Shown piece by piece: positions 41,918 through 56,307 of a stretch of 64,000 bases of DNA. The translations under genes and the position numbers were made by a program. The DNA comes from Pedobacter psychroterrae (GTDB lineage: Bacteria; Bacteroidota; Bacteroidia; Sphingobacteriales; Sphingobacteriaceae), in assembly GCF_004331695.1 (NCBI RefSeq), contig NZ_SJSL01000001.1, forward strand, positions 1,550,001-1,614,000, read 5' to 3'. Position 1 is the stretch's first letter; the number at the start of each line of letters is the position of its first letter. Under the pieces are notes generated by a model that was given only the letters and a program-made list of their open reading frames with translations, ran no database searches and was not told the DNA's origin.

Positions 41918-43570
41918 TTAGCGAAGCCGTTGTTTTTGTTTCAGCAGTAGTTTTTCGAGTTTGTCGTATTCTACATCCTGCACATTGATTTTGTCATCAA
42001 TCGCGATAGCTGCGGCTGTAGCCGCTGATTCACCAAGGATCATGAAAACGGGCTCCATCCTTGCCGAACCATAGGCGATGTGCGAACTTGATAAACAGAC
42101 TGGTACAAATAAATTGGTGCATTCCGAAGCTTTAGGTACAATTGCACCATAACCAATACTATAAGGTTTAGGTGCTTTTACGCCTATATCCCCCTCATTT
42201 TGCACAAAGCCCTTGTCCGTAACATAGCGCTGTGTATTGTGAGAGTCCAGAGAATACGAACCCATTCCTACTGGTTTTGGTACTTCTTTTTTACCCAGCA
42301 CTTCGTTTTCAGTCATTACATAATCACTCACCATTCTTCTTGATTCCCGTATGTAAAGCTGATGTGGCCAGTTGCCATTGTCCTTAAATTCATCTTTAGA
42401 CAAACCCCAGGTTTTCAGTTTTTTTTGCAGCGCAGCAGGCACTCTTGTATCCGTGATCATAAAGTAATACAGGCCTTTCTGATAATTCTCATGTTCTTTA
42501 ACGATCTTCCTGCGCTGCTCATAGGAAGCTTCCGGATAGTCATAGTTCATGCCGATAAAGTCTGTGCTAAAAGGGCCGTGATTGTTGGTGTCGGTCTTTC
42601 TGTTCGGAATATCGTCAAACTTCTCAAACAGTTCTGTCCAGCCACTCTGGAATACCCTGGCCAGCAGTTCATAGTCCATTGCGTTATAATTATCCGGTTT
42701 TGGAAATGTAATCCGGTTGTCCGGATGGTTGGTCATACACACCCTGAAGCAGTATGCCTGAAGCTTATCATCACCCTGACCTTTTATGCCAGGTGGCTGA
42801 TCGGAAATCCCCGCCAGCAATCCGCTGCTTTTATCACCCGGTACTTTATAAGGATCTACAGGTGTCATAAAATGATGCTTATGCTGAAAAACTTCAGTTT
42901 GCACACCATTCCATTGCTCCCCATACACCGAATTTGCTTCCCTGCCTATGTGGTAGCTCACTTTTGAGGTAGCCATCAAGTCGCCTTCATAGGTGGCATC
43001 TATAAACATTTTTCCTTTAAATACTTTTCCACTCAGCGTTTTCACAGAAAGGATTTTTCCGTTCTTCATGGTCACGCCATTGCTGCGGTCCAGCCATTCG
43101 TTGCGGTATACCGTGATCTTATGTTCCTTTACAAAATCCTCCATGATCTTTTCCGCTACATGAGGCTCAAAGATCCACATGGTACGGTCTTTTCCATCCA
43201 TCGCAGGGGTGCCCTGTCCCTTATTGCCGTATTCACTTTTCATTTGCCATTTCCAGGAGGCATCATCCTGATAGTGCATATAGACCCGGTGATAGAACTC
43301 CCTTGATAATCCGCCTATCACCTCTTTATTGCCTGTGTCAGTAAATCCAAGTCCCCCGGATGACAATCCGCCCAGGTGTATCTCCGGAGATACCACGATC
43401 ACTTTTTTGCCTAGTTTTACTGCGCTTACTGCGGCTGTAATTCCTGCCGACGTACCACCATAAATGATGATGTCTGCTTCCAGGTTCTTTTTCTGAAAAG
43501 CAGACAAGTCAATGAACAGGAAAAGCAACGCTATGACAAGAGATATACTTATAATTTTTTTTTTATTCAT
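41918..43570 (-). CDS. Exported FAD-dependent oxidoreductase (FAD_oxidored family)
   Basis: A 550-residue protein from the ATG at 43570 (MNKKKIISISLVIALLFLF), which gives a Sec-type signal; an in-frame upstream ATG exists but would overlap the preceding gene. The FAD-binding motif follows (IIIYGGTSAGITAAVSAVKL, GGLSSGGLG) and later IDATYEGDLMATS. The family occurs often in Bacteroidota glycan loci; the substrate is unknown, but an oxidised sugar is plausible. It is the last gene of the SusCD locus, two bases after the SGNH gene. Confidence 0.78.
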   Translation of the reverse strand: MNKKKIISISLVIALLFLFIDLSAFQKKNLEADIIIYGGTSAGITAAVSAVKLGKKVIVVSPEIHLGGLSSGGLGFTDTGNKEVIGGLSREFYHRVYMHYQDDASWKWQMKSEYGNKGQGTPAMDGKDRTMWIFEPHVAEKIMEDFVKEHKITVYRNEWLDRSNGVTMKNGKILSVKTLSGKVFKGKMFIDATYEGDLMATSKVSYHIGREANSVYGEQWNGVQTEVFQHKHHFMTPVDPYKVPGDKSSGLLAGISDQPPGIKGQGDDKLQAYCFRVCMTNHPDNRITFPKPDNYNAMDYELLARVFQSGWTELFEKFDDIPNRKTDTNNHGPFSTDFIGMNYDYPEASYEQRRKIVKEHENYQKGLYYFMITDTRVPAALQKKLKTWGLSKDEFKDNGNWPHQLYIRESRRMVSDYVMTENEVLGKKEVPKPVGMGSYSLDSHNTQRYVTDKGFVQNEGDIGVKAPKPYSIGYGAIVPKASECTNLFVPVCLSSSHIAYGSARMEPVFMILGESAATAAAIAIDDKINVQDVEYDKLEKLLLKQKQRLR

Positions 43571-43572
43571 GT

Positions 43573-44325
43573 TTACGAAGTTAATAATGCTTTTAAATAA
43601 CCGGGATAATTTTCTGCGTCGCCCTTTGTAATGCTGTCTCCAAAACACACCGTTTTATGGTAAGGGATTTTATGATCTAGAATGTAATCATACACACTGA
43701 CTGCAATGAACCTGTAGCCATTGGCAGTAGGGTGGATGCCGTCCCTTTTATTGCTGTTTGCCAGGTTTTTCAATAGCGAGTCCTTATCGTCACTGATCTT
43801 ACCAATGGCATTAAACAGGTGTTCAAGGTCTATCAGGTGTGCTTTGTAGTCGGCCGCTATTTTTTTGATCACGTCATTTACCTGTTTTCTTCTGCCGGCT
43901 ACTCCCTCTGGTTCATAGAAAGCTGCAGGATGCCGGGTCAAAAGATCTGGTTCATGACAGGGTAGTATGGTCATCATAATGAGTTTGCTTTTCCTGGCCA
44001 GTATGCCTTTGGCCAGTTCCCGCATGTTTTGCTCGTACTGCTTCAGCGGAATGTATTTCACGCTGTTCATATCATTTGTGCCTGCCATTAAAATGGTCAG
44101 TTCGGCTTTATGTAGATAACAATCCTTTTCTACTCTGCCCAGAAGGTCCTTAGTGGTATTTCCGCCTATTCCGGCATTGATGATTACTAAATCGCCATCA
44201 TTTCCTGCCGCCGGACCCAGGTGATCATTTGCTGCAATAGCAGGTGTGCCAAGCAGGATATTCCCTGCTACCACACCTGCTATAGTTTTTGCAATATTTT
44301 TAACTGCTGTTCTTCTGTTATACAT
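43573..44325 (-). CDS. SGNH/GDSL hydrolase with circularly permuted motif order
   Basis: A 250-residue exported protein. The N-terminus (MYNRRTAVKNIAKTIAG) looks like a Tat-type signal with twin arginines. Block II is INAGIGGNTT (G52-G55), block III is MAGTNDMNS (N84), and block V is DGIHPTANGY (D195, H198). Block I with the catalytic serine, CFGDSITKG (S231), is at the extreme C-terminus with its following helix (YPGYLKALL). In ordinary family members block I is first. All four blocks are present once, so the enzyme is probably active as an esterase or deacetylase on a glycan. Confidence 0.82.
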   Translation of the reverse strand: MYNRRTAVKNIAKTIAGVVAGNILLGTPAIAANDHLGPAAGNDGDLVIINAGIGGNTTKDLLGRVEKDCYLHKAELTILMAGTNDMNSVKYIPLKQYEQNMRELAKGILARKSKLIMMTILPCHEPDLLTRHPAAFYEPEGVAGRRKQVNDVIKKIAADYKAHLIDLEHLFNAIGKISDDKDSLLKNLANSNKRDGIHPTANGYRFIAVSVYDYILDHKIPYHKTVCFGDSITKGDAENYPGYLKALLTS

Positions 44326-44326
44326 T

Positions 44327-44818
44327 TTAATTGGTAAGCGTATACGTAAAGATTTTGTAGTTCTTGTCTACACCGAGGCCAAGTTCCGTGTTGTTGCTGG
44401 CCGAACTTAATGTAATGATAATTGTTTTGTTACCGCCAATCAGAGGGGTATTGATGACCGGGATATTAATGGCGGCAAAATACTGTCCTGCCGGAATTGT
44501 TACACTTTTCTGTGCCGGGGCATTGTAATTGACCCCATCTGCCGCCGTACCGCTCAGCGTATACTGAATAGTGACGTCAAAGGTTTTCAGTGTATTTACA
44601 TACACCCTGGCGCTGGCCGGCGATACAGAAACTTTGCCAGTAGCCGTGTTCCCTATAGCAGTACTTGCTGTGGGGCTTGGTCCGGTATTTAATTTGGCAA
44701 TAATGTAGACCGCATCGGGAATAGGCGGGTAGTTTTTATCATCTTTTTTGCAGCTGCTGATCAGTGTAATGCCCAGCATTAAAAAAACAGCGTATGGTAT
44801 TAATTTATGTAAGTTCAT
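44327..44818 (-). CDS. Calx-beta-like surface lipoprotein
   Basis: A 163-residue protein with a lipoprotein signal (lipobox ISSC, Cys23). The region at about 63-150 (FDVTIQYTLSGTAADGVNY, VTIPAGQYFAAINIPVIN, KTIIITLSSASNNTELG) looks like one Calx-beta or related immunoglobulin-like domain. Such small lipoproteins downstream of SusD often bind glycan at the cell surface. It sits 11 bases after susD and one base before the SGNH gene. Confidence 0.68.
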   Translation of the reverse strand: MNLHKLIPYAVFLMLGITLISSCKKDDKNYPPIPDAVYIIAKLNTGPSPTASTAIGNTATGKVSVSPASARVYVNTLKTFDVTIQYTLSGTAADGVNYNAPAQKSVTIPAGQYFAAINIPVINTPLIGGNKTIIITLSSASNNTELGLGVDKNYKIFTYTLTN

Positions 44819-44829
44819 GATAGGTTTTT

Positions 44830-46239
44830 TTAATAGCCGGGATTAGGAACCAGATTAGGGTTAATGATCAATTCAGAGGCAGGGATCGGCCAGCGTACCC
44901 AGTTTGCATTGGTATAGCCGGTCACGGCCGCATACCTGCCAGTTCGGATCAGGTCATAGTACCGCTTTCCTTCGTATACCAGTTCAGATAACCTTTCCTT
45001 TTCTATGGCCAGCCGTACCTCATCTTGTGTCGCTGCACTGGTATTGCCTACATTAGCCCGGCTGCGGATCTGGTTGAGCAAAGGAATTGCCTCACCTGTT
45101 TTCCCGCTTTCGTTAAGTGCTTCGGCCCTGAAGAGGACAATCTCTGCCAGGCGGTATACAATGCGGTTGGCATCCTGCTGCAGCACATTGTTGGCCACTG
45201 TTCCGGGATACTTTGCAATATAGGTCTGGTTTGGATCACGGTACGGGGCAGGTACAGGGCCTGAGTTTTTAAAGGTGCCGGCCCTGCGAAGGTCGTTTGC
45301 AGGTAATGCATTCAGCACTGCTACCGATGGCTGAAAGCGCCAGTTGCCCGCTGTATATGCCGCACCCAGCGGTAGAAACAGATCGGTCAGCGGATTGCTG
45401 TTTCCTTCCTGGTAAGTGTAATTGTACTGAATTTCAAAGATGGATTCAGTCGTGTTTTTGGAAGCAAAGATGCTGGCGTAATTGTTACCTGCCACGAGGC
45501 TATAATTGGCAGGGCTGATGATGACCAGCCTGGCCATTTCAGCCGCATCATCATATTTCTTTTGCCACAGGTAAAGGTCAGCCAGCATACTTCTTATGGC
45601 AGCTTTGGTAGCTCTTCCCTTGTTCTCCAGTGTACTGCCAAAAGGCAGATCAGGCACCCTGTCCAGCGCCGCTTTAAGGTCCGTTTCCACTTGGATAAAC
45701 AGCGCCTGTCTGTTGCTCAGCGAAGGATAGAGATTGTCCGTCCCACCTTCAAAAGGTTCCAATACCAAGGGTGCGTTTTCAAATGTCCTTGCCAGGTAGA
45801 AATACACCATCCCCCTTAAAAAATACGCCTCTCCCAAAATACGCTCTTTGCGTGCATTCAAGGCCGGGTCTGACATTCCAGGTACATATTTAAGGACGTT
45901 ATTTATTCTGTTCATTGCCGAATAGAGAAAGTTCCATGTGGCATAACCGTTTGCTGAGCCTACATTTCCGGTGGTAATTTCGAGTTCCGTAGCGAATGAA
46001 CGGTCTGTACTGGCAAATACATCCGTACGGCCGTCGCCCCACATTACATAAGCATTTGCATTGCCCTGCATGGCATCATAGCAGCCTATGATTGCATTGT
46101 CTGCATCGGATGCAGTTTTAAAGAAGTTGCTTCCGGTAATTAGACTTTCGGGTACTTGCTCCGTTACCTTTTCACAGGCAAACAAGGAGAGGGCAACTGT
46201 ATATAGTACTATTAATTTTAAGTTCTTCATCTTCATCAT
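44830..46239 (-). CDS. SusD/RagB family glycan-binding lipoprotein
   Basis: A 469-residue lipoprotein (lipobox LFAC, Cys22). It has the SusD plan: N-terminal NFFKTASDADNAIIGCYDAMQ, TPR-like helices (AYFLRGMVYFYLARTFENAPLV, KAAIRSMLADLYLWQKKYDDAAE) and the C-terminal RLAEIVLFRAEALNESGKTGEAIPLLNQIR region with LIRTGRYA. It caps the SusC channel and delivers oligosaccharide. It starts three bases after susC. Confidence 0.95.
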   Translation of the reverse strand: MMKMKNLKLIVLYTVALSLFACEKVTEQVPESLITGSNFFKTASDADNAIIGCYDAMQGNANAYVMWGDGRTDVFASTDRSFATELEITTGNVGSANGYATWNFLYSAMNRINNVLKYVPGMSDPALNARKERILGEAYFLRGMVYFYLARTFENAPLVLEPFEGGTDNLYPSLSNRQALFIQVETDLKAALDRVPDLPFGSTLENKGRATKAAIRSMLADLYLWQKKYDDAAEMARLVIISPANYSLVAGNNYASIFASKNTTESIFEIQYNYTYQEGNSNPLTDLFLPLGAAYTAGNWRFQPSVAVLNALPANDLRRAGTFKNSGPVPAPYRDPNQTYIAKYPGTVANNVLQQDANRIVYRLAEIVLFRAEALNESGKTGEAIPLLNQIRSRANVGNTSAATQDEVRLAIEKERLSELVYEGKRYYDLIRTGRYAAVTGYTNANWVRWPIPASELIINPNLVPNPGY

Positions 46240-46242
46240 TTT

Positions 46243-49200
46243 TTAAAATCCAACGCTTAAACCAAATATGAACGATCTGTACTGAGGGTAGGTGCCCTGG
46301 TCGAGACCTATGTCTGTTACCCCGTTTGCCATTGCACTGGCTTCCGGATCATAGCCTGTATAGTTGGTGATGGTAAACAGGTTTTGCGCCGTAGCATAGA
46401 TCCTGCAGTTTTTAACAGGAGTGCGGCTTAGCGCCGTATTAGGAAGTTTGTATCCAAGTGTTGCGGTCTTGATGCGGAAGTAAGAGCCATCTTCCAGCCA
46501 GCGGTTGGAGAAGCGCCTGTTGCCCGCAGGATCGGCAGCATTAGCTCTAGGGATATCTGTAACATCACCTTCATTTCTCCATCTTCTCAGATTGCTGTAA
46601 TTACCGCTAAAACGCTGGTCTGACTCTGTGGTATAACGGGTTCCATTTACGATATCATTTCCATAAACAAAGGTTGCCAGTACATTCAGGTCAAAATTCT
46701 GATAGGTAAAATTGTTGCTCAGACCTCCTGTAAATTTAGGGAGTGCCCTGCCTATGATCATCCTGTCGAGGTTATCAATGGTATTATTGCCATTGGCATC
46801 TGTAATGATCAGGTCGCCTCCTCTATAAACATAGTTGGTTGTTCCAATACTGGTAGAAGTAAGGCCTGTGCTGTTGTCTGTGGTGTACTGATAGACGCCG
46901 TTTGACTGCCATCCGTAGAAGCTTCCGATCGGTTCACCTACTCTCAACACCGAATAGGATACCAGCGAGCCTGTCAGCCCTGCCCCTTTACTGAGGATGA
47001 TTTCTGTAGCGCCCGAGTTGAGGGCCACCACCTTATTCTTGTTAAATGAAACGTTAAAATTGGTGCTCCAGCTAAATTTCTGGTTTTCAATGTTACGGGT
47101 ATCTAAGTTAAACTCCAGTCCCCTGTTTTCCGTTGCGCCTACATTCTGTAGTACAGAACCAAATCCTGTAGTACCCGGCAGCGGAACGTTTAACAGCAGA
47201 TTAGACGTTTTTTTAACATAGGCATCCACATTCAGTGCAATCCGCGAATTCAGTATAGAGACATCCATCCCGATGTTGTACTGGTCTGTGGTCTCCCAGG
47301 TAAGGTCCTGATTAGGCAATATACCCAGACTGATACCGCTCTGTCCGATATATCTTGTGCCGGTATTGTACTGGCCCTGTGCTACATAGTCGCCTATATC
47401 CTGGTTTCCTGTGCGGCCTACGCTACCTCTCAGTTTTAAATCATTGATCAGGGACGATTTGTTCCAGAAGCCTTCGTTGGTAATGCGCCAGGCAGCAGAG
47501 ATTGCAGGGAACATTGCATATTTTTTGTTCGCCCCAAACCTTGACGAGCCGTCACGCCTCACTGTTCCCTCCAGCAGGTACTTGTCAGCAAAGGAGTACC
47601 CGATCCTGGCAAAAGCTGAAGAAAGCCCGTTGGCGGATACCGATGAGGAAACGCTACCCGCTATAGAAGCCGCATTCAGCGTATAAATATTGTTGGTAGC
47701 ATATTGTGATCCTGACTCGTTCATCGCAAAAGAGCGTCTTTTTTGCTGACTGTAACCTACTAATCCAGTCAGTAAGTGTTTCCCCAATGCCTTGGTATAG
47801 ACCAATGTATTCTCGTTGATCCAGCCATTTACGTCAGAAGAGAAAGCCACACCCGAAGAAGTACCGTTGCGCATGGCGTCTGAAGGCTCAAAGAACGTAT
47901 CCAGTACACCGGCATAGTTTAATCCAAAGGTAGCCCTTAACTTTAGGTCCGGCAAAATGTTGTATTCTCCGTATACATTGCCTACCAAAGAAGCTACCTC
48001 ATTCTCATACTTTACCCTCTGGGCATAGATCACGGGATTGATAAAGCCAGAGACATCGTCGTTATACAAGGTGCCGTCAGCATTATACAAGGGCATGGAA
48101 GGAGATTTTTTTAAACCCACCTGGATGAGTGATAATCCCCCGTCATCCGTAGAAGCCCTTTTATTGATGTATTTGGTAATGGAGATGTTCGAACCGAACT
48201 TAAATTTATCAGTGGCATCATAGTCCATATTGAACCTGCCATTTCCTCTTTTATAGCTGGAATTGATGATGATGCCTTCCTGATCAAAGTAATTTCCGCT
48301 CAGAGAAAAACGAAGTTTATTCTCGCCGCCCCTTATGGCCAGTTCATAGTTTGAAATAGGAGCCGCTCTTAGGATTTCGTCCTGCCAGTCGGTATCCGCG
48401 AGCCTCCCGAGCGTATCCGGCAATATAAAGCCATACAAAGCAGTAGTTCCATAATTCAGGGCATTGGCCCTTCCTTCCTGGATTAGCTCCAGCGATTGCG
48501 AGCTGTTCAGCATTTTAATCCTGGTGTTTTTGTTGTCCTGTTGAGTACCTGTATAGTAATTCAAACTATAGGTGGTTCCGCCTTTTTTACCTCTCTTGGT
48601 AGTGATCAGCACGACGCCATTTGCAGCTCTCGAACCATAAATCGCCAGTGCGCCTGCATCTTTCAATACCTCCATAGACTCTATGTCGTCGGCATTGATG
48701 GCCGAAAGGGCAGATGGGGGAGTACCACCGCGGCTATTATATCCGGTCAGGGAACCCGATTCAACCGGAACACCATCTACAATATACAATGGATCGTTGC
48801 CTGCATTGATGGAAGTAGTACCTCTGATCCTGAGGGTTACTGCACTTCCTGGTGCTCCCGAGTTTTGCACTACCTGCACGCCCGAAGCCCTTCCCTGAAT
48901 CAGCGACTGAGGGGTAGCTACCGGAAGGTTTACGATTTCTTCACCTCTTATAGAGGATACTGCCGAAAGCAGGTCCTTTTTCTTCTGTGTACCATAGCCC
49001 ACTACTACCACCTGGTTCAGTTCCTTACGGTTCTCTTCCAGTTTCACGTTGATAGTGCTTTGGTTATTTACTTCAATTTCCTGGTTGAGGTAGCCGATGT
49101 ACGAAAATACCAATACGCCATCCTGGGGAACATTCAATATATAAGTGCCATCCTTATCGGTGGTGGTACCGATGGTACTACCTTTTAGCTGGATACTGAC

Positions 49201-49647
49201 ACCTGTCATGGCCAAATTAGCCGCATCCGTCACCCGTCCTTTTACCACGATGTCTTTTCGCGCTTTCTGGTCAGACACGATGACTACCAGTCCGTCGCCA
49301 AACAGGCGGTAGTTTAGTCCGGTATCTTTCAGTACCATTTTAAGCACCTCCAATACAGGGGTATTGTCTACATTTATGGAGACTTTATTGTTTAGCCCTT
49401 CAAATTCCTCACTGTAAAGCAGACGGATATTTCCCTTCTCTTCCAGCATAGAAAAAGCGCGCTTTATCCTGATTTCCTTGGCGTCGATGCTCACATTATT
49501 TTGCGAGTATCCGTTTGCGGAAACCTTGATGCATAAAACTAATGTTAAGATAATGGTCCAATTAAGCATTAAAAGGAGTTTGGTTGAGAAAACATTAGAC
49601 AAAAAATACCTTAAGAAAACGCTGTTGCATAGTTCCTTATATTTCAT
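46243..49647 (-). CDS. SusC/RagA TonB-dependent transporter with STN signalling domain
   Basis: An 1134-residue outer membrane protein. After a long N-terminal signal comes an STN domain (about 50-115, NVSIDAKEIRIKRAFSMLEE), a carboxypeptidase-like domain (about 131-210, KGRVTDAANLAMTGVSIQLKG), the plug (NQVVVVGYGTQKKKDLLSAV, VVQNSGAPGSAVTLRIRGT, DPLYIVDGVP) and a beta barrel ending FIFGLSVGF. The STN domain means it also signals to the FecR anti-sigma factor encoded upstream. It imports oligosaccharides with SusD using TonB energy. Confidence 0.96.
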   Translation of the reverse strand: MKYKELCNSVFLRYFLSNVFSTKLLLMLNWTIILTLVLCIKVSANGYSQNNVSIDAKEIRIKRAFSMLEEKGNIRLLYSEEFEGLNNKVSINVDNTPVLEVLKMVLKDTGLNYRLFGDGLVVIVSDQKARKDIVVKGRVTDAANLAMTGVSIQLKGSTIGTTTDKDGTYILNVPQDGVLVFSYIGYLNQEIEVNNQSTINVKLEENRKELNQVVVVGYGTQKKKDLLSAVSSIRGEEIVNLPVATPQSLIQGRASGVQVVQNSGAPGSAVTLRIRGTTSINAGNDPLYIVDGVPVESGSLTGYNSRGGTPPSALSAINADDIESMEVLKDAGALAIYGSRAANGVVLITTKRGKKGGTTYSLNYYTGTQQDNKNTRIKMLNSSQSLELIQEGRANALNYGTTALYGFILPDTLGRLADTDWQDEILRAAPISNYELAIRGGENKLRFSLSGNYFDQEGIIINSSYKRGNGRFNMDYDATDKFKFGSNISITKYINKRASTDDGGLSLIQVGLKKSPSMPLYNADGTLYNDDVSGFINPVIYAQRVKYENEVASLVGNVYGEYNILPDLKLRATFGLNYAGVLDTFFEPSDAMRNGTSSGVAFSSDVNGWINENTLVYTKALGKHLLTGLVGYSQQKRRSFAMNESGSQYATNNIYTLNAASIAGSVSSSVSANGLSSAFARIGYSFADKYLLEGTVRRDGSSRFGANKKYAMFPAISAAWRITNEGFWNKSSLINDLKLRGSVGRTGNQDIGDYVAQGQYNTGTRYIGQSGISLGILPNQDLTWETTDQYNIGMDVSILNSRIALNVDAYVKKTSNLLLNVPLPGTTGFGSVLQNVGATENRGLEFNLDTRNIENQKFSWSTNFNVSFNKNKVVALNSGATEIILSKGAGLTGSLVSYSVLRVGEPIGSFYGWQSNGVYQYTTDNSTGLTSTSIGTTNYVYRGGDLIITDANGNNTIDNLDRMIIGRALPKFTGGLSNNFTYQNFDLNVLATFVYGNDIVNGTRYTTESDQRFSGNYSNLRRWRNEGDVTDIPRANAADPAGNRRFSNRWLEDGSYFRIKTATLGYKLPNTALSRTPVKNCRIYATAQNLFTITNYTGYDPEASAMANGVTDIGLDQGTYPQYRSFIFGLSVGF

Positions 49648-49745: not shown

Positions 49746-50846
49746 TTAGTAAATCTCTATGTCATGGTTCTGGATTTTGAAGTTAAAGTGTTTGGTTAAT
49801 TGCATTGCCTGCAGGGCCTGGAGGATGGTTTCTTTAGAAAACGCGCCCGTATAGCGGTAGTCTTTTATTTTAGGGTCTCTGATGTTGATCTTCACATTGT
49901 ACCAGCGGTCCAGCTTTGGGGCCAGTTCTTCCATCGATTCATTTTTAAACACCAGGTAGTTTTCTTTCCAGGATGTTTCTGTCAGGTATTCTTTGTTGGC
50001 CACAATTACAGGCGCCACGTATTCTATGATTATTTTAGCGCCTTTTACGCTGGAAGGATCTTGTTTAGTAGGGTTGTCTTGTTCGTTGAGAATGAATTTC
50101 TCTGATGGTTTTAAGACGATCTTTTCGTTTGGCCTGTTGTTTACAGAAAGCTCTACCGAACCCCTGATCAGGGTAGTTTCCGTACGCTCATCATTTTCAT
50201 AAGCCCGCACATTAAAGGATGTGCCCAATACCTTGATAGATATTTTCTCTGTTTTGATGATAAAAGGGTGCTCTTTGTCGTGTTTTACGTCGAAAAAAGC
50301 CTCCCCACTGAGCGTGACCACCCTTTGGTCTCTGTTGACCATGGCCTTATCGTAAGATAGTTTGCTCTCAGAATTAAGCCAAATATTCGTTCCATCGGGC
50401 AATGTGATATTTTTCCGGATGCCTTTGCCCGATATAATCTGCGTATCCGCTACCGTTACTTCGGCTGTTTTTGGATAGTAAAATAACACAACTGTTACCA
50501 AAGCCAGAAACAAGGTACACGTATAAAGTACCCTGGATATACTCCATTTGCTTCGCGGTTCTTCTTCATTGTCAATGGCCATTTCAATTTCCATTGCATT
50601 CATATTCTGAGTTTGTCTTTCCTTGTCAAAATTGAACAGCGATTTATGTTTCAGCAGATGCTTTTCGTAAAGCTCATTTACGTTTGTATCCTCTGCCGGA
50701 TTGGCCCATATTTGCTTAAAGATTTCTTCGTAGTAGACCGCATCAGGGTAATGAGCCATCAGCTCTCCGAGTTCTATTAACTCAAGTTCTGAAATTTCTC
50801 CTGCCATTTTACAGCCCAATAGCTCTATGATGCGATGATCATTCAT
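49746..50846 (-). CDS. FecR-type anti-sigma factor
   Basis: A 366-residue protein. The cytoplasmic N-terminal part (1-98) would hold the ECF sigma factor, one membrane helix lies at about 105-125 (VLYTCTLFLALVTVVLFYY), and the periplasmic FecR domain follows (ISGKGIRKNITLPDGTNIWLNSESKLSY, VVTLSGEAFFDVKHDKEHPFIIKT) with a C-terminal DUF4974-like part (LAPKLDRWYNVKINI). It would receive the signal from the SusC STN domain. Confidence 0.93.
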   Translation of the reverse strand: MNDHRIIELLGCKMAGEISELELIELGELMAHYPDAVYYEEIFKQIWANPAEDTNVNELYEKHLLKHKSLFNFDKERQTQNMNAMEIEMAIDNEEEPRSKWSISRVLYTCTLFLALVTVVLFYYPKTAEVTVADTQIISGKGIRKNITLPDGTNIWLNSESKLSYDKAMVNRDQRVVTLSGEAFFDVKHDKEHPFIIKTEKISIKVLGTSFNVRAYENDERTETTLIRGSVELSVNNRPNEKIVLKPSEKFILNEQDNPTKQDPSSVKGAKIIIEYVAPVIVANKEYLTETSWKENYLVFKNESMEELAPKLDRWYNVKINIRDPKIKDYRYTGAFSKETILQALQAMQLTKHFNFKIQNHDIEIY

Positions 50847-51088: not shown

Positions 51089-51646
51089 TTAAGCCAAATT
51101 AAACTCATCTTTCAGGATGACCATCAGCTTCTTGATGGAAGCAACCAAATGTGCATCTACCGTCTTGACTGAAATGTTCAGGATCTCTGCCACTTCTTTA
51201 TAGCTAAAGCCATCCTCTTTTACCAGCTTAAACACTAGCTTGCCTTTTTCAGGAAGGGTATTGATCGTTTCTTCCAGTCGCTTCCTCAATTCGTCATTGA
51301 TCAGCAACTGCTCAGGGGTCCTGATGTTAAGGTGTACACTGACATCGAGGTCATCGAGGGAAGTAAACTTCCTGCTGCTGTCTTTCTTTACCAGATTCAG
51401 TGAAAGGTTTCGGGCGGTGATGAATGCATATGACCTGACATTCTTTACGGCTGTGAGTTCTACCCGCCTTTGCCATAAAACCAGCATTACGTCGCTGGCT
51501 GTCTCTTCAGACAGTTGTCGGGATTTTAAAAAGCAAAGAGAAAACCGGGTGAGGGGGCCGAATAATAGCGTAAAAAGCCTTCTGTACGAAGTCTCGCAAT
51601 TGCGTTTAGCCATGCTATCTATCAATATGGCAATCTCGTCGTACAT
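51089..51646 (-). CDS. ECF-type RNA polymerase sigma factor
   Basis: A 185-residue sigma-70 family factor of the Bacteroidota ECF group. Region 2 is YRRLFTLLFGPLTRFSLCFLKSRQLSEETASDVMLVLWQ; region 4 is LPEKGKLVFKLVKEDGFSYKEVAEILNISVKTVDAHLVASI with a clear helix-turn-helix. It is followed by fecR and susC with an STN domain, so it should activate the transport locus when the glycan binds. Confidence 0.95.
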   Translation of the reverse strand: MYDEIAILIDSMAKRNCETSYRRLFTLLFGPLTRFSLCFLKSRQLSEETASDVMLVLWQRRVELTAVKNVRSYAFITARNLSLNLVKKDSSRKFTSLDDLDVSVHLNIRTPEQLLINDELRKRLEETINTLPEKGKLVFKLVKEDGFSYKEVAEILNISVKTVDAHLVASIKKLMVILKDEFNLA

Positions 51647-51751: not shown

Positions 51752-53440
51752 TTACCAATAGATGGTGTAAAGGGCGACAATTAATCCGCAAACTATAATA
51801 GCTCCTATTGCAAAGCCTTTACTGGTTTTAAACATGCCGCTGTCTATATCCAACCCTTTCGCAACAACGCCACGTCTAGTCTCGAATATACTGATCAGGT
51901 ACATCACTACCACACAGATGATAAATACAAAACCCATGCGGTCGAGGAATGGAATTTCATACAGCATAGCCCCGTCTTTTTGCGCCACCAGTTTGGAAAA
52001 GCCTGATGCGCTCAGGAACTCCAGGTTCATGATAAATGGCAGGAACTTGAAGAATACAGACAATACAAATCCACCTACAGTAGCAAATAAAGCTGCATTG
52101 GAGGTGGTCTTTTTCCAGAAAAAGCCCAGGATGAACATAGCAAAAATACCCGGAGAGAAAAATCCGGTGTATTCCTGGATGAACTGGAAGCCCCCTTTTT
52201 TGTCAATACCCAATAGCGGGGCAATAAGAATCGCAATAAGCATTGCAAAAACAACTGTATATCGTCCTATAACTACCTGTTTGTCCTCATGTGCATCTTT
52301 ATTGATCACTTTTTTATAGATATCCAGCGTAAAGATCGTGGCTATACTATTTGCTTTTCCGGCTAATGAGGCCACTACTGCCGCAGTAAGTGCAGCAAAA
52401 GACAAGCCTTTTAATCCTGCCGGAAGGAGGTTTAACAACACAGGATAGGCAGTATCAGGCGCCACTTCCCCGCCTTTGTTCATGCTGTTCTGGAAATCAC
52501 CGTAACCTTCCTTGTAAAGGACATAGGCAGCGATACCAGGCAGTACAACAATCACTGGCATCAGCAATTTTAAGAAGGACGCAAAGAGAATCCCGTTGCG
52601 TGCGGTCTTAAGGTCTGCACCCAAAGCCCGCTGCGTAATGTATTGATTACAGCCCCAGTAATTTAGGTTTACAATCCACATACCACCCACAAGGACTGTA
52701 AGCCCAGGCAGGTCGAGGTAATTTTCGTTCTCCTTCTCAAAGATCATGTGGAAATGATCGTCTGCATGTTCTGTGAGGAGGTTGAAACCGTTGAGCACCC
52801 CGCTCGATCCGAAGTGGCTGGCCACCAGATCCAGCGCAAGATAGGTGGTAGCCAGTCCGCCCAATATCAGGAAAAAGACCTGTATTACATCTGTATACCC
52901 AATTACCTTCATGCCACCCAATGTAATGATGATGGCAAAGATGGCCAGGATATACATACAGGCAGTAAGGTTGATGCCTGATATGCTGTTGATGGCCAAT
53001 GCACCCAAATAAAGTATGGAAGTAAGGTTGACCACTACATAAAGCAGCAGCCAGAATACCGCCATGATCATCGCCACCGTACCATTGTACCGCTGATGCA
53101 GGAATTGGGGCATGGTGTAGATCTTGTTTTTGAGATATACCGGAATGAAGAATACGGCTACAATAACCAATGTCACTGCCGCCATCCATTCATAGGTGGC
53201 AATGGCCAGTCCCATTTTAAATCCCGATCCGCTCATGCCTATAAACTGCTCCGCAGAAATGTTGGAAGCAATCAGTGATGCGCCTATGGCCCACCAGGTA
53301 AGAGAATCTTTAGCAAGAAAGAAATCTTTAGAGTTTTCTTTGTTTGCTTTCTTTTGGCGGTATATCCACCAGCCATAAAAAGCTACGATAAAGAAATAGA
53401 TCAGGAAAACGGCATAGTCTAAGGTGCCCAGAGTCTTCAT
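51752..53440 (-). CDS. Sodium:solute symporter (SGLT type), probable xylose transporter
   Basis: A 562-residue protein with about 14 membrane helices. The SSS/SGLT features SLIASNISAEQFIGMSGSGF, YEWMAAVTLV, NLNYWGCNQYITQRALGA and SFAALTAAVVASLAGKANS are present. Its place 25 bases after xylA in the xylB-xylA unit makes xylose or a related pentose the likely substrate, carried with sodium. Confidence 0.88.
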   Translation of the reverse strand: MKTLGTLDYAVFLIYFFIVAFYGWWIYRQKKANKENSKDFFLAKDSLTWWAIGASLIASNISAEQFIGMSGSGFKMGLAIATYEWMAAVTLVIVAVFFIPVYLKNKIYTMPQFLHQRYNGTVAMIMAVFWLLLYVVVNLTSILYLGALAINSISGINLTACMYILAIFAIIITLGGMKVIGYTDVIQVFFLILGGLATTYLALDLVASHFGSSGVLNGFNLLTEHADDHFHMIFEKENENYLDLPGLTVLVGGMWIVNLNYWGCNQYITQRALGADLKTARNGILFASFLKLLMPVIVVLPGIAAYVLYKEGYGDFQNSMNKGGEVAPDTAYPVLLNLLPAGLKGLSFAALTAAVVASLAGKANSIATIFTLDIYKKVINKDAHEDKQVVIGRYTVVFAMLIAILIAPLLGIDKKGGFQFIQEYTGFFSPGIFAMFILGFFWKKTTSNAALFATVGGFVLSVFFKFLPFIMNLEFLSASGFSKLVAQKDGAMLYEIPFLDRMGFVFIICVVVMYLISIFETRRGVVAKGLDIDSGMFKTSKGFAIGAIIVCGLIVALYTIYW

Positions 53441-53465
53441 ATAATGGTTTGTTTTTGGTTTGGCC

Positions 53466-54794
53466 TTAAATATACCTGTTTATTAGGTTTTCCAAAAATT
53501 CTTGTCTTCCGCTTAGCGTAGCTGGTTCGCCATTCTGTACCGCATACTCACGCAGGTCTTCCAGGTTCAAAGCTCCGTTTTCAAATTCTTTTCCTTTGCC
53601 GCTATCGAACGATGCATAACGATCGGTCCGGATCTTTTTATAATCCGACTTGTTGAGGATCTCATCTGCCACGATCAAAGCACGAGCAAACATGTCCATG
53701 CCGCCAATGTGTGCATAGAAAAGGTCTGCTCTGTCGGTAGAATTTCTACGGATCTTTGCATCAAAGTTGATACCTCCTGTTTTGAGACCGCCCGATTCAA
53801 GAATGATCAGCATAGATTCTACCAGCTCATTGATGTTGTTCGGGAACTGGTCAGTATCCCATCCGTTTTGGTAATCGCCTCTGTTGGCGTCTATTGATCC
53901 AAGGATACCTGCATCAACAGCTACCTGCAACTCATGCTGGAAGGTGTGTCCCGCCAAGGTAGCATGGTTTACTTCCAGGTTTAGTTTAAAATCTCCAAGT
54001 AAATCATACTTCTGAAGGAAGCCCAATACGGTAGCCGCGTCATAATCGTACTGGTGTTTGGTAGGCTCACATGGTTTAGGTTCGATCAGGAAGGTTCCTT
54101 TAAATCCATTCTTTCTGGCATAGTCTTTAGACGCATGCAGGAATTTGGCCAGGTGTTCCTGTTCCCGTTTCATATCAGTGTTTAACAGCGACATATAGCC
54201 TTCTCTACCTCCCCAGAATACATAGTTTTCGCCGCCCAGCGCTATCGTAGCATCCAATGCTGCTTTTACCTGTGCTGCACCATGTGCCAATACATGAAAA
54301 TCAGGATTGGTAGCAGCACCGTTCATATACCTTCTGTGAGAGAACAGGTTGGCCGTGCCCCACAATAACTTTACTCCGCTTTCTGCTTGTTTTTCTTTGG
54401 CGTAATCTACCAGGGTCTGCAGCCTTTTGTCATTTACATTGATGTCATTGTCATAGTCTACCACGTCTACATCGTGGAAGCAGTAGTAAGGGATGTCCAG
54501 CTTGGTTAAAAATTCAAATGCAGCATCCATTTTGTCTTTGGCACGTTCTACAGGGTCGCTTTTTTCATCCCATGGGAAAATGTGACTTGGTCCGCCAAAG
54601 GGATCTGCGCCATTGCCGACAAACGAATGCCAGTAAGCCCCGGCAAAGCGAAGGTGTTCTTTCAATGTTTTGCCGCCTATTACTCTTTCAGCATCGTACC
54701 ATCTGAATGCAAGGGGATTGTCTGTTTGAGGTCCTTCGTAGGCGATCTTGCCGATCTGCGCGAAGTATTCTTTCTCTGAATTAAGTGTTGACAT
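53466..54794 (-). CDS. xylA: Xylose isomerase
   Basis: A 442-residue class II xylose isomerase. The catalytic histidine region is [13 protein letters not shown], metal ligands lie in [40 protein letters not shown] and [18 protein letters not shown], and the C-terminal [12 protein letters not shown] is typical. It converts D-xylose to D-xylulose. It lies between xylB and the symporter. Confidence 0.97.
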
Positions 54795-54822
54795 AATGTA
54801 TTTAGGTTTTAAAGTGTATATG

Positions 54823-56307
54823 TTAGATTATGGTATTTAATTGTTGCATCAGTAACTGCTTCCAGTTCTGGTAATGTTCTTCCAGGTTTTCTCCGTTCGG
54901 TTCTACCAGCTGGATAGGTTTTTTGTTGGTGAATGCCTCACTGGCAGATTTGAATATACCTGCTCCGATTCCTGCACCTATGGCGGCTCCGTAACTGCCA
55001 TCATTGTTGTGCAGCTCTACAGGAACGCCTGTGATGTTAACGAAGGATTGGGTAAAGAGTTCGCTGAGGAAAAGATTGGATTTTCCAGCCCTGATAATAG
55101 AGGGCTGCATACCGTTCTCTCTTAAAATGTCCAGACCGTATCTGAATGAAAAAGCTATACCTTCCTGCACAGCACGGAATATATGCGCCTGTGTATGCAG
55201 GTTGAGGTCTATGTGGTGAAGGTGTACACCTACCATTTTGTTGTTCAACATTCGCTCTGCTCCATTTCCGAACGGCAATACGCGCAGCCCGTCACTGCCC
55301 ACAGCAATACTCGCGGCGGCGCGGTTCATGGAATTATAGTCAACAGCAGCACCAAACACGTTTTTAATCCAGCGGTTCATGCTTCCCGTGCCGTTGATGC
55401 AAAGCAACACACCGAGTCTTTGTTGCTCGATGGCGTGGTTTACATGCGCGAAGGTATTTACCCTCGATTGCGGATCCGACAGCAGGTGATCGGTCACTCC
55501 ATAGATCACTCCGGAAGTGCCTGCCGTAGCGGCTACTTCACCGGGCTCGGTCACGTTTAGCGACAAGGCATTGTTGGGCTGGTCTCCCGCTTTATAAGAT
55601 ACTGGTATGCCCGGTTTTAATCCAAGGCTGTCGGCAACTGATTTAGTAATATAACCATGCGCTGAGAATACAGGCCTGATCTGAGGGATCACTGAGTCAT
55701 CAAAGCCATAATAGTCCATCAGTTCAGATGACAGCTTGTTTTCTTTAAAATCCCAGAAAATACCCTCCGAAAGTGCCGATATACTGGTAGTGATATCGCC
55801 TGTCAGTTTCATTGCGATGAAATCGCCCGGCAGCATTAGTTTGTCTGCTTTACTGTATACCTCAGGCTCATTTTGCTTTACCCAGGCCATTTTGGAGGCA
55901 GTAAAGTTACCTGGTGAGTTGAGCAGGCGGCTTAATGAAAACTCCTCTCCCAACGCATCAAAGGCTTTGTTGCCTATCTCAACTGCCCGGCTATCACACC
56001 AGATGATGCTGTTTCGGAGGTTTTGCTGGTCCTTGTCTACAATCACCAGTCCATGCATCTGATAGGCAATACCAATTGCAGCGATCTGCTGCGGATCATA
56101 TTTCTGTTGCTGGTTGCAGCGCATGATCGCTTTTTGCACATGCTCCCACCACATGTCGGGAGATTGCTCTGCCCATCCATATTTTGGGGCCAGAATTTCT
56201 GATTCGCTGTCGGGGTACTGTGCGCTTGCCAGAATGTTGCCAGAAGCAGTATCAACCACCGAAACCTTGATAGAGGAAGTGCCTACATCAATACCTAATA
56301 AATACAT
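54823..56307 (-). CDS. xylB: Xylulokinase
   Basis: A 494-residue FGGY kinase from the ATG at 56307 ([19 protein letters not shown]). Further motifs are [43 protein letters not shown] and the ATP-binding [15 protein letters not shown]. An in-frame ATG at 56364 would add 19 poorly conserved residues and lies before the likely transcription start, so it is rejected. It phosphorylates D-xylulose for the pentose phosphate pathway. Confidence 0.95.

Follow-up and report, generated by a model that had tools for sequence, protein, structure and literature searches.

Can an SGNH hydrolase carry its catalytic serine in the last residues of the chain and still be an enzyme, or does such a gene record damage to an ordinary one? 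The question is raised by a reading frame in a 64,000-nucleotide stretch of the Pedobacter psychroterrae genome (NZ_SJSL01000001.1, positions 1,550,001 to 1,614,000; hereafter the window), which starts with ATG, encodes 250 amino acids without an internal stop, and presents the sequence blocks of this very common family in the order II-III-V-I, i.e., G-N-H-S (Table 1). The initial annotation had read this order as a circular permutation in which the chain was cut after helix 1 and before strand 2, each block occurring once in an intact frame. Blocks I and V indeed occur once each, and no GDS/GNS-type motif was found upstream of block II in the protein. The residue numbers given there for the triad (S231, D195, and H198) and the oxyanion hole (G52-G55 and N84) are likewise correct. 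We regard a circular permutation of an SGNH hydrolase as close to certain.

Table 1. Features of the permuted SGNH gene and its locus, in window coordinates.
Feature	Position	Strand	Remark
Circularly permuted SGNH hydrolase	43573..44325	-	250 aa; coordinates include the stop codon
Export signal, twin-arginine-like (NRRTAVK), residues 1-32	44230..44325	-	Tat signal putative
Block II INAGIGGNTT, residues 49-58, with oxyanion-hole Gly G55	44152..44181	-	Motif placement
Block III GTND, residues 82-85, with oxyanion-hole Asn N84	44071..44082	-	Sequence, conservation
Block V DGIHP, residues 195-199, with catalytic D195 and H198	43729..43743	-	Sequence, conservation
Block I CFGDSIT, residues 227-233, with catalytic Ser S231, C-terminal	43627..43647	-	Sequence, conservation, Pfam rotation
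Helix YPGYLKALL, residues 240-248, counterpart of canonical helix 1	43582..43608	-	Sequence, AlphaFold2 model
FAD-dependent oxidoreductase (PF12831), next gene	41918..43570	-	Pfam, tblastn
Lipoprotein-like protein (by eye)	44327..44818	-	Calx-beta/DUF4843/DUF5006 similarity weak, below Pfam cut-offs
SusD family protein	44830..46239	-	Pfam
SusC-type TonB-dependent receptor	46243..49647	-	Pfam
FecR anti-sigma factor	49746..50846	-	Pfam
ECF-type sigma factor	51089..51646	-	

The block order is shared by the relatives of the window protein. These were gathered with permuted queries, a sampling that favours permuted proteins, and among the 45 proteins compared, the window protein included, all have the order II-III-V-I with block I at the C-terminus only; the canonical order I-II-III-V (S-G-N-H) is absent. 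The 45 comprise the window protein, L066, L068, two proteins from viral collections, and the other 40 rows of alignment A2. The fused proteins L066 and L071 entered the count with their SGNH part alone, and the damaged copies L016, L017, and L057 were left out of both A2 and the count. Block V was missed by the automatic pattern in L045, where DGLHP is present by eye. An N-terminal block I in homologs, which the initial annotation had named as a sign against permutation, was found in none of the 45 proteins, either whole or as a relic. G52, G55, N84, D195, H198, and S231 are invariant in all 41 rows of A2; G55, placed by the motif GIGGNTT, is the residue that we take to be the oxyanion Gly. 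The distance from the Ser to the C-terminus is 19 residues in the window protein and 18 to 33 across the 45 proteins. This spacing and the invariant catalytic residues indicate that the C-terminal block I is not there by chance. At the other end of the chain, the RR pair is conserved in 14 of the 16 sequences in alignment A1, which suggests that the window protein may be exported through the Tat system, and in several deeper relatives a lipobox-like cysteine replaces RR (by eye).

Profile matching gives the same picture. Pfam assigns the window protein to Lipase_GDSL_2 with 80.8 bits against a cut-off of 32.9. In its native order the mature protein scored 80.5 bits against PF13472 (Lipase_GDSL_2) and matched profile positions 34 to 177 of 178, and placing the last 30 residues first raised the score to 95.5 bits and extended the match to positions 1 to 177 of 178. 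Two alternative rotations scored 76.4 bits (profile 1 to 137) and 84.7 bits (best stretch 1 to 98). Because the rotation completes the profile match, the C-terminal segment represents the missing start of the Lipase_GDSL_2 profile.

An AlphaFold2 model of residues 33 to 250 was built from an alignment of four sequences (the window protein, L031, L071, and L109), with a mean pLDDT of 79.8 and a pTM of 0.82. Ten-residue pLDDT means were lower in a few stretches (34 and 61 at the start, 69 at residues 51 to 60, and 62 and 55 at residues 91 to 110). The model opens with strand 2 (residues 47 to 49) and closes with a strand at 224 to 228, a short helix from S231, and a helix at 240 to 249 (full-length numbering). 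Searches with Foldseek and VIA-align returned 1yzf as the best structural match (Z 16.4, rmsd 2.3, 158 residues), followed by 7ddy, 3p94, 4iyj, Axe2, and others; together with the pTM, the 1yzf match establishes that the alpha/beta/alpha SGNH core fold is present. Model residues 4 to 187 align with residues 33 to 190 of the 1yzf chain, leaving unpaired the first 32 chain residues, which hold block I, and the last 30 or so residues of the model, which is what a sequential alignment should give for a permutant. The aligned range reaches the model's last residue in 6 of the 50 listed VIA-align rows (3mil, 4oap, 4jko, 4oao, 3w7v, and 5jd3), and so the unmatched tail is not a universal pattern. The Pfam rotation, the order of elements in the model, the 1yzf alignment, and the conservation agree in placing the cut between helix 1 and strand 2, as had been proposed.

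The same sequence could in principle complete its active site in trans, with the C-terminal strand and Ser loop swapped between the subunits of a domain-swapped oligomer. Such an exchange would suit the shortness of both the C-terminal segment and its linker, and no permuted solved structure was recognized among 58 matched PDB sequences (two alignments viewed). The monomer model is nevertheless compact at its pTM of 0.82, and we consider a swap improbable compared with a permuted chain that folds on itself.

What the permuted enzyme might act on is suggested by its surroundings. Genes on the minus strand follow the order sigma factor, FecR, SusC, SusD, small lipoprotein-like protein, SGNH gene, and FAD oxidoreductase, the last of which starts 2 bases past the SGNH stop codon. 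Directly upstream of the sigma factor, on the same strand (window 51752 to 56307), are genes for a sodium:solute symporter, a xylose isomerase-like protein, and an FGGY sugar kinase. This stretch is probably a xylose-use operon, and it hints that the adjoining glycan locus may concern xylan.

The oxidoreductase is a recurring neighbour. Using tblastn (at least 40 bits, within 2.5 kb of the permuted gene), we detected it in 23 of 39 neighbourhoods, including those of both damaged copies and two with weak or partial matches (L069 and L092). Pfam adds L105 and L106, bringing PF12831 to 25 of 39 neighbourhoods at this distance. The other 14, all outside the window protein's 24-row branch of tree 1 (described below), showed no PF12831 gene at this distance (L086 has one further off). 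The FAD oxidoreductase persists beside the damaged L016 and L017 (L087 and L088). Glycoside hydrolases also occur in relatives' loci: GH28 with GH88 (L079 and L080), GH97 (L080), GH88 (L104), GH92 (L075), and GH20 (L098), and L092 holds a 3-keto-disaccharide hydrolase with a GFO/IDH oxidoreductase. In L089 (6471 to 7559) a canonical-order SGNH esterase (Lipase_GDSL_3, GxDLY) is encoded immediately next to the permuted one and in the same direction, and in L107 (3529 to 14551) the permuted gene lies amid genes for an amidohydrolase, a GlcNAc 2-epimerase, an oxidoreductase-like protein, and an MFS transporter, which suggests amino-sugar use in that branch.

The initial annotation had described a compact stand-alone enzyme, which holds for the window protein and fails for two relatives, L066 and L071. 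L066 (198 to 2171) is a 658-aa protein in which a fucoidan-lyase-like N-terminal domain is followed by the permuted SGNH domain, possibly a lyase-deacylase fusion. Its N-terminal part matches 7xzf and eight more sequences with E values of 6.2e-66 to 1.5e-64 over residues 14 to 430 of 430. The likeness to the fucoidan lyase FdlA (7xza and relatives) is confined to this domain, a putative lyase that the window protein lacks. L071 (4323 to 5621) is one of two viral-collection contig proteins that are permuted; it has 432 aa, with the permuted domain as its C-terminal half, and a Laminin_G_3 protein is encoded two genes before it. No other family in the L071 stretch points clearly to a phage. The other, L109 (3013 to 3705), is a stand-alone protein of 231 aa with 35% identity; it comes directly after a protein of 588 aa that matches fibronectin type III and ahead of an endolysin gene, and a phage DNA-polymerase exonuclease gene lies further along the contig.

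The window protein is very probably an active hydrolase. Gene context and the lyase fusion of a relative make it a likely glycan O-acyl esterase, an estimate that the fucoidan-lyase-like fusion of L066 raised slightly and that the acyltransferase neighbours of two relatives held down. Those neighbours, an Acyl_transf_3 gene 1.0 kb from L056 on the opposite strand (L100) and an HGSNAT_cat gene about 4 kb from L053 (L098), would fit an O-acyltransferase of the kind of the permuted AlgJ, AlgX, PatB1, and WssI rather than a hydrolase, as would the fact that the permuted SGNH proteins described in the portions of the literature available to us are O-acetyltransferases or participants in O-acetylation. 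However, block III of the window protein retains its Asn and block V its DxxH motif, whereas AlgJ, in the same portions, has a Tyr and DxH, and the SusC/SusD genes and relatives' glycoside hydrolases among the scanned neighbours, like the L066 fusion, point to breakdown over synthesis. We therefore rate a transferase as unlikely and retain the esterase reading.

The permuted form occurs both in the genus and beyond it. A single-sequence query of the window genome returned one match, and the A1 profile added a second of canonical order (G000:C1:1247242, L133). The genus was covered by 145 genomes, of which 85 matched at an E value of 0.001 or less, mostly weakly; intact permuted relatives were present in 15 of the 145, P. 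psychroterrae included (L001-L015), and damaged remnants in two more (L016 and L017). At the family level (399 genomes), 33 matches in 32 genomes had E values of at most 1.9e-21; 32 of these are intact and permuted, and L057 is broken by a stop and also has block I at its end. Among the lower-scoring family-level matches listed, all 20 that were read have the canonical order. Four of the 395 class-level genomes and four of the 395 phylum-level genomes matched at an E value of 1e-20 or less, P. psychroterrae included each time, and all are permuted. One permuted protein, L064 (genome G900), belongs to another class of the phylum; among 244 genomes of that class, a permuted match occurred in 1 and canonical matches (81 to 89 bits) in 4. 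In family f36 (195 genomes), the matches listed at 254 bits or more number 12 in 11 genomes, all permuted, and the 64 listed at 98 bits or less are canonical in 63 cases (L178 and L198 judged by eye), the other being a 79-aa permuted fragment (92 bits); this gap in scores indicates that the profile separates the permuted from the canonical order. Overall, the permuted proteins come from five family codes, distributed over two classes of the phylum. The search for homologs of the same order, which the initial annotation had proposed, found that order in all 44 relatives and in 12 of 12 strong f36 matches.

Beyond the phylum, the coverage consisted of viral, phage, and plasmid collections and a single-protein scan of genome contigs, which returned one locus. 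No permuted member was found among the five matches read in annotated phage records: those in Vibrio K389, Vibrio D526, and a Listeria phage contig have the canonical order, that in Prochlorococcus P-TIM68 is without SGNH blocks, and the Arthrobacter Anjali gene stops 6 codons past the match, too soon to hold a C-terminal block I. Two matches in plasmid records end at query residues 220 and 215, short of block I.

Damaged copies (L016, L017, L057, and L159) show an internal deletion, stops, or a fragment, and they suggest repeated loss of the gene. Their occurrence among relatives is what might favour reading the window gene itself as a damaged canonical gene that lost its N-terminal block I, with a terminal GDSIT-like motif that is coincidental or derives from an overlapping gene, but a C-terminal block I that is invariant in 41 of 41 rows and exclusive in all 45 proteins, those of two viral-collection contigs among them, leaves that reading scarcely any probability. 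Truncation, chance, and a frameshift are ruled out by the same two counts and by the f36 matches, and the preference for permutation over truncation first expressed from the window sequence stands.

The permutation is a fixed, inherited form of a set of proteins, the window protein and its 44 relatives. A quick tree (tree 1) of 45 permuted proteins, entered in rotated form, and 33 canonical rows placed the permuted rows on one side of a branch with an SH-aLRT of 93. A more careful tree (tree 2) of 56 permuted and 37 canonical rows, in which 8 long-branch canonical rows were dropped and 11 permuted and 12 canonical rows were added (L065 and L151 among the permuted rows represent one gene), recovered the permuted branch with a bootstrap of 81 and an SH-aLRT of 46, the group being single in 80% of 200 bootstrap trees. 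Support for the permuted clade in this larger tree is moderate (SH-aLRT 46), and a single origin of the permutation is likely, not proven.

Taken as a whole, we find it highly likely that this is a G-N-H-S permuted SGNH/GDSL hydrolase, probably of one origin and probably acting as an exported glycan esterase, an explanation that joins the observed order, conservation, and core fold to a predicted triad geometry and activity. The chain would open at the canonical strand 2, run through blocks II, III, and V to the last canonical helix, and pass by a short linker (about PYH) into the canonical strand 1 and the Ser loop GDSIT, with helix 1 as its terminal element. An ordinary fold and active site would result, with S231 as nucleophile, H198 and D195 as its partners, and an oxyanion hole formed by G55, N84, and the S231 backbone. 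The protein would be exported, probably by Tat, and act in the periplasm. There its most likely task would be to cleave O-acyl (acetyl) groups off a glycan that the locus's own SusC/SusD pair handles, and this deacylation may be linked with the step of the adjoining FAD oxidoreductase. The permutation most likely arose once and would now be the fixed form of the set.

Natural circular permutations that retain an enzyme active site are uncommon. The SGNH superfamily appears to have acquired one with a second cut point, now fixed in a set of proteins, and it thereby offers a natural test of the chain breaks that the fold tolerates. There are also implications for annotation: family profiles start matching the permuted proteins at or after block II, so that active members could be mistaken for truncated or dead ones by a reader relying on profiles alone. 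Both the FAD oxidoreductase that recurs beside the gene and the fusion to a fucoidan-lyase-like domain point to glycan-deacylation steps that are open to direct testing. More tentatively, the G-N-H-S permutants could constitute an undescribed enzyme family of single origin, a candidate carbohydrate-esterase family common to the phylum's glycan-uptake loci and viral contigs. One branch might form a deacylate-and-oxidise pair with PF12831 on one glycan, and another, fused to a fucoidan-lyase-like domain, might strip acyl groups during chain cutting; with the nucleophile on the segment made last, there might be no activity before the chain is complete.

Among known proteins, the canonical Lipase_GDSL_2 esterases (1yzf, 4iyj, 3p94, AlAXEase 7ddy, and Axe2 3w7v) share the core fold (Z 14.5 to 16.4), the catalytic residues, and the relative order of blocks II, III, and V. 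Block I (strand 1, the Ser, and helix 1) is N-terminal in these enzymes and C-terminal in the window protein, and residues 2 to 14 of 1yzf match the window protein's C-terminal block in the PDB sequence alignment. The CE12 rhamnogalacturonan acetylesterases are called prototypical SGNH hydrolases in the portion of the source available to us (PMC9487903), which implies the canonical order, unlike that of the window protein. The SGNH fold is common to both, and CE12 would also be a plausible guide to the kind of substrate, given the GH28 and GH88 genes beside relatives, with deacetylation by the window protein as a predicted activity.

The initial annotation had also pointed to AlgX and AlgJ as precedents. 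They are precedents for the kind of event, a natural circular permutation of the SGNH fold, and not for the cut, which differs (H-S-G-N/Y versus G-N-H-S). According to the available portions of the published accounts, AlgX, AlgJ, and PatB1 are circularly permuted (PMC5697884), with the order H-S-G-Y or H-S-G-N in AlgJ/AlgX (PMC4148444, PMC9487903; structures 4O8V and 4KNC named in the latter), a circularly permuted HSGN fold in PatB1 (PMC9487903), and the order H-S-G-D in WssI (PMC10302187). None of the AlgX, AlgJ, or PatB1 structures is among the 50 VIA-align entries listed, which excludes nothing. In the same portions AlgJ/AlgX are characterized by a GTSYS block I, DxH, a Tyr for the Asn, a cap domain, long antiparallel strands, and a role in alginate O-acetylation, in contrast to the GDSIT/GDSLT block I, the Asn in block III, and the DxxH of the window protein and its relatives; neither a cap domain nor two long antiparallel strands are evident in the element list of the AlphaFold2 model. 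Membership of the window protein in these AlgX/DHHW (H-S-G-N) families, which a circular permutation of the same fold might suggest, is thus barely credible given the different cut (II-III-V-I versus V-I-II-III), the different motifs of blocks I, III, and V, and a Pfam assignment to Lipase_GDSL_2 with no AlgX family listed; block order and motifs rule out kinship with AlgX/AlgJ. No description of the G-N-H-S order was found in the covered portions of the open-licence literature on SGNH permutation or on the locus. The G-N-H-S order adds to the SGNH fold a second natural permutation, distinct from the first, and its catalytic motifs are the canonical ones. PatB1 (DHHW family) and WssI, as far as the available accounts describe them, share the circularly permuted SGNH core, are O-acetyltransferases, and have the His block (DHHW in PatB1) ahead of the Ser block. 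Like AlgJ/AlgX, they open with the His block, whereas the window protein opens with block II and closes with block I.
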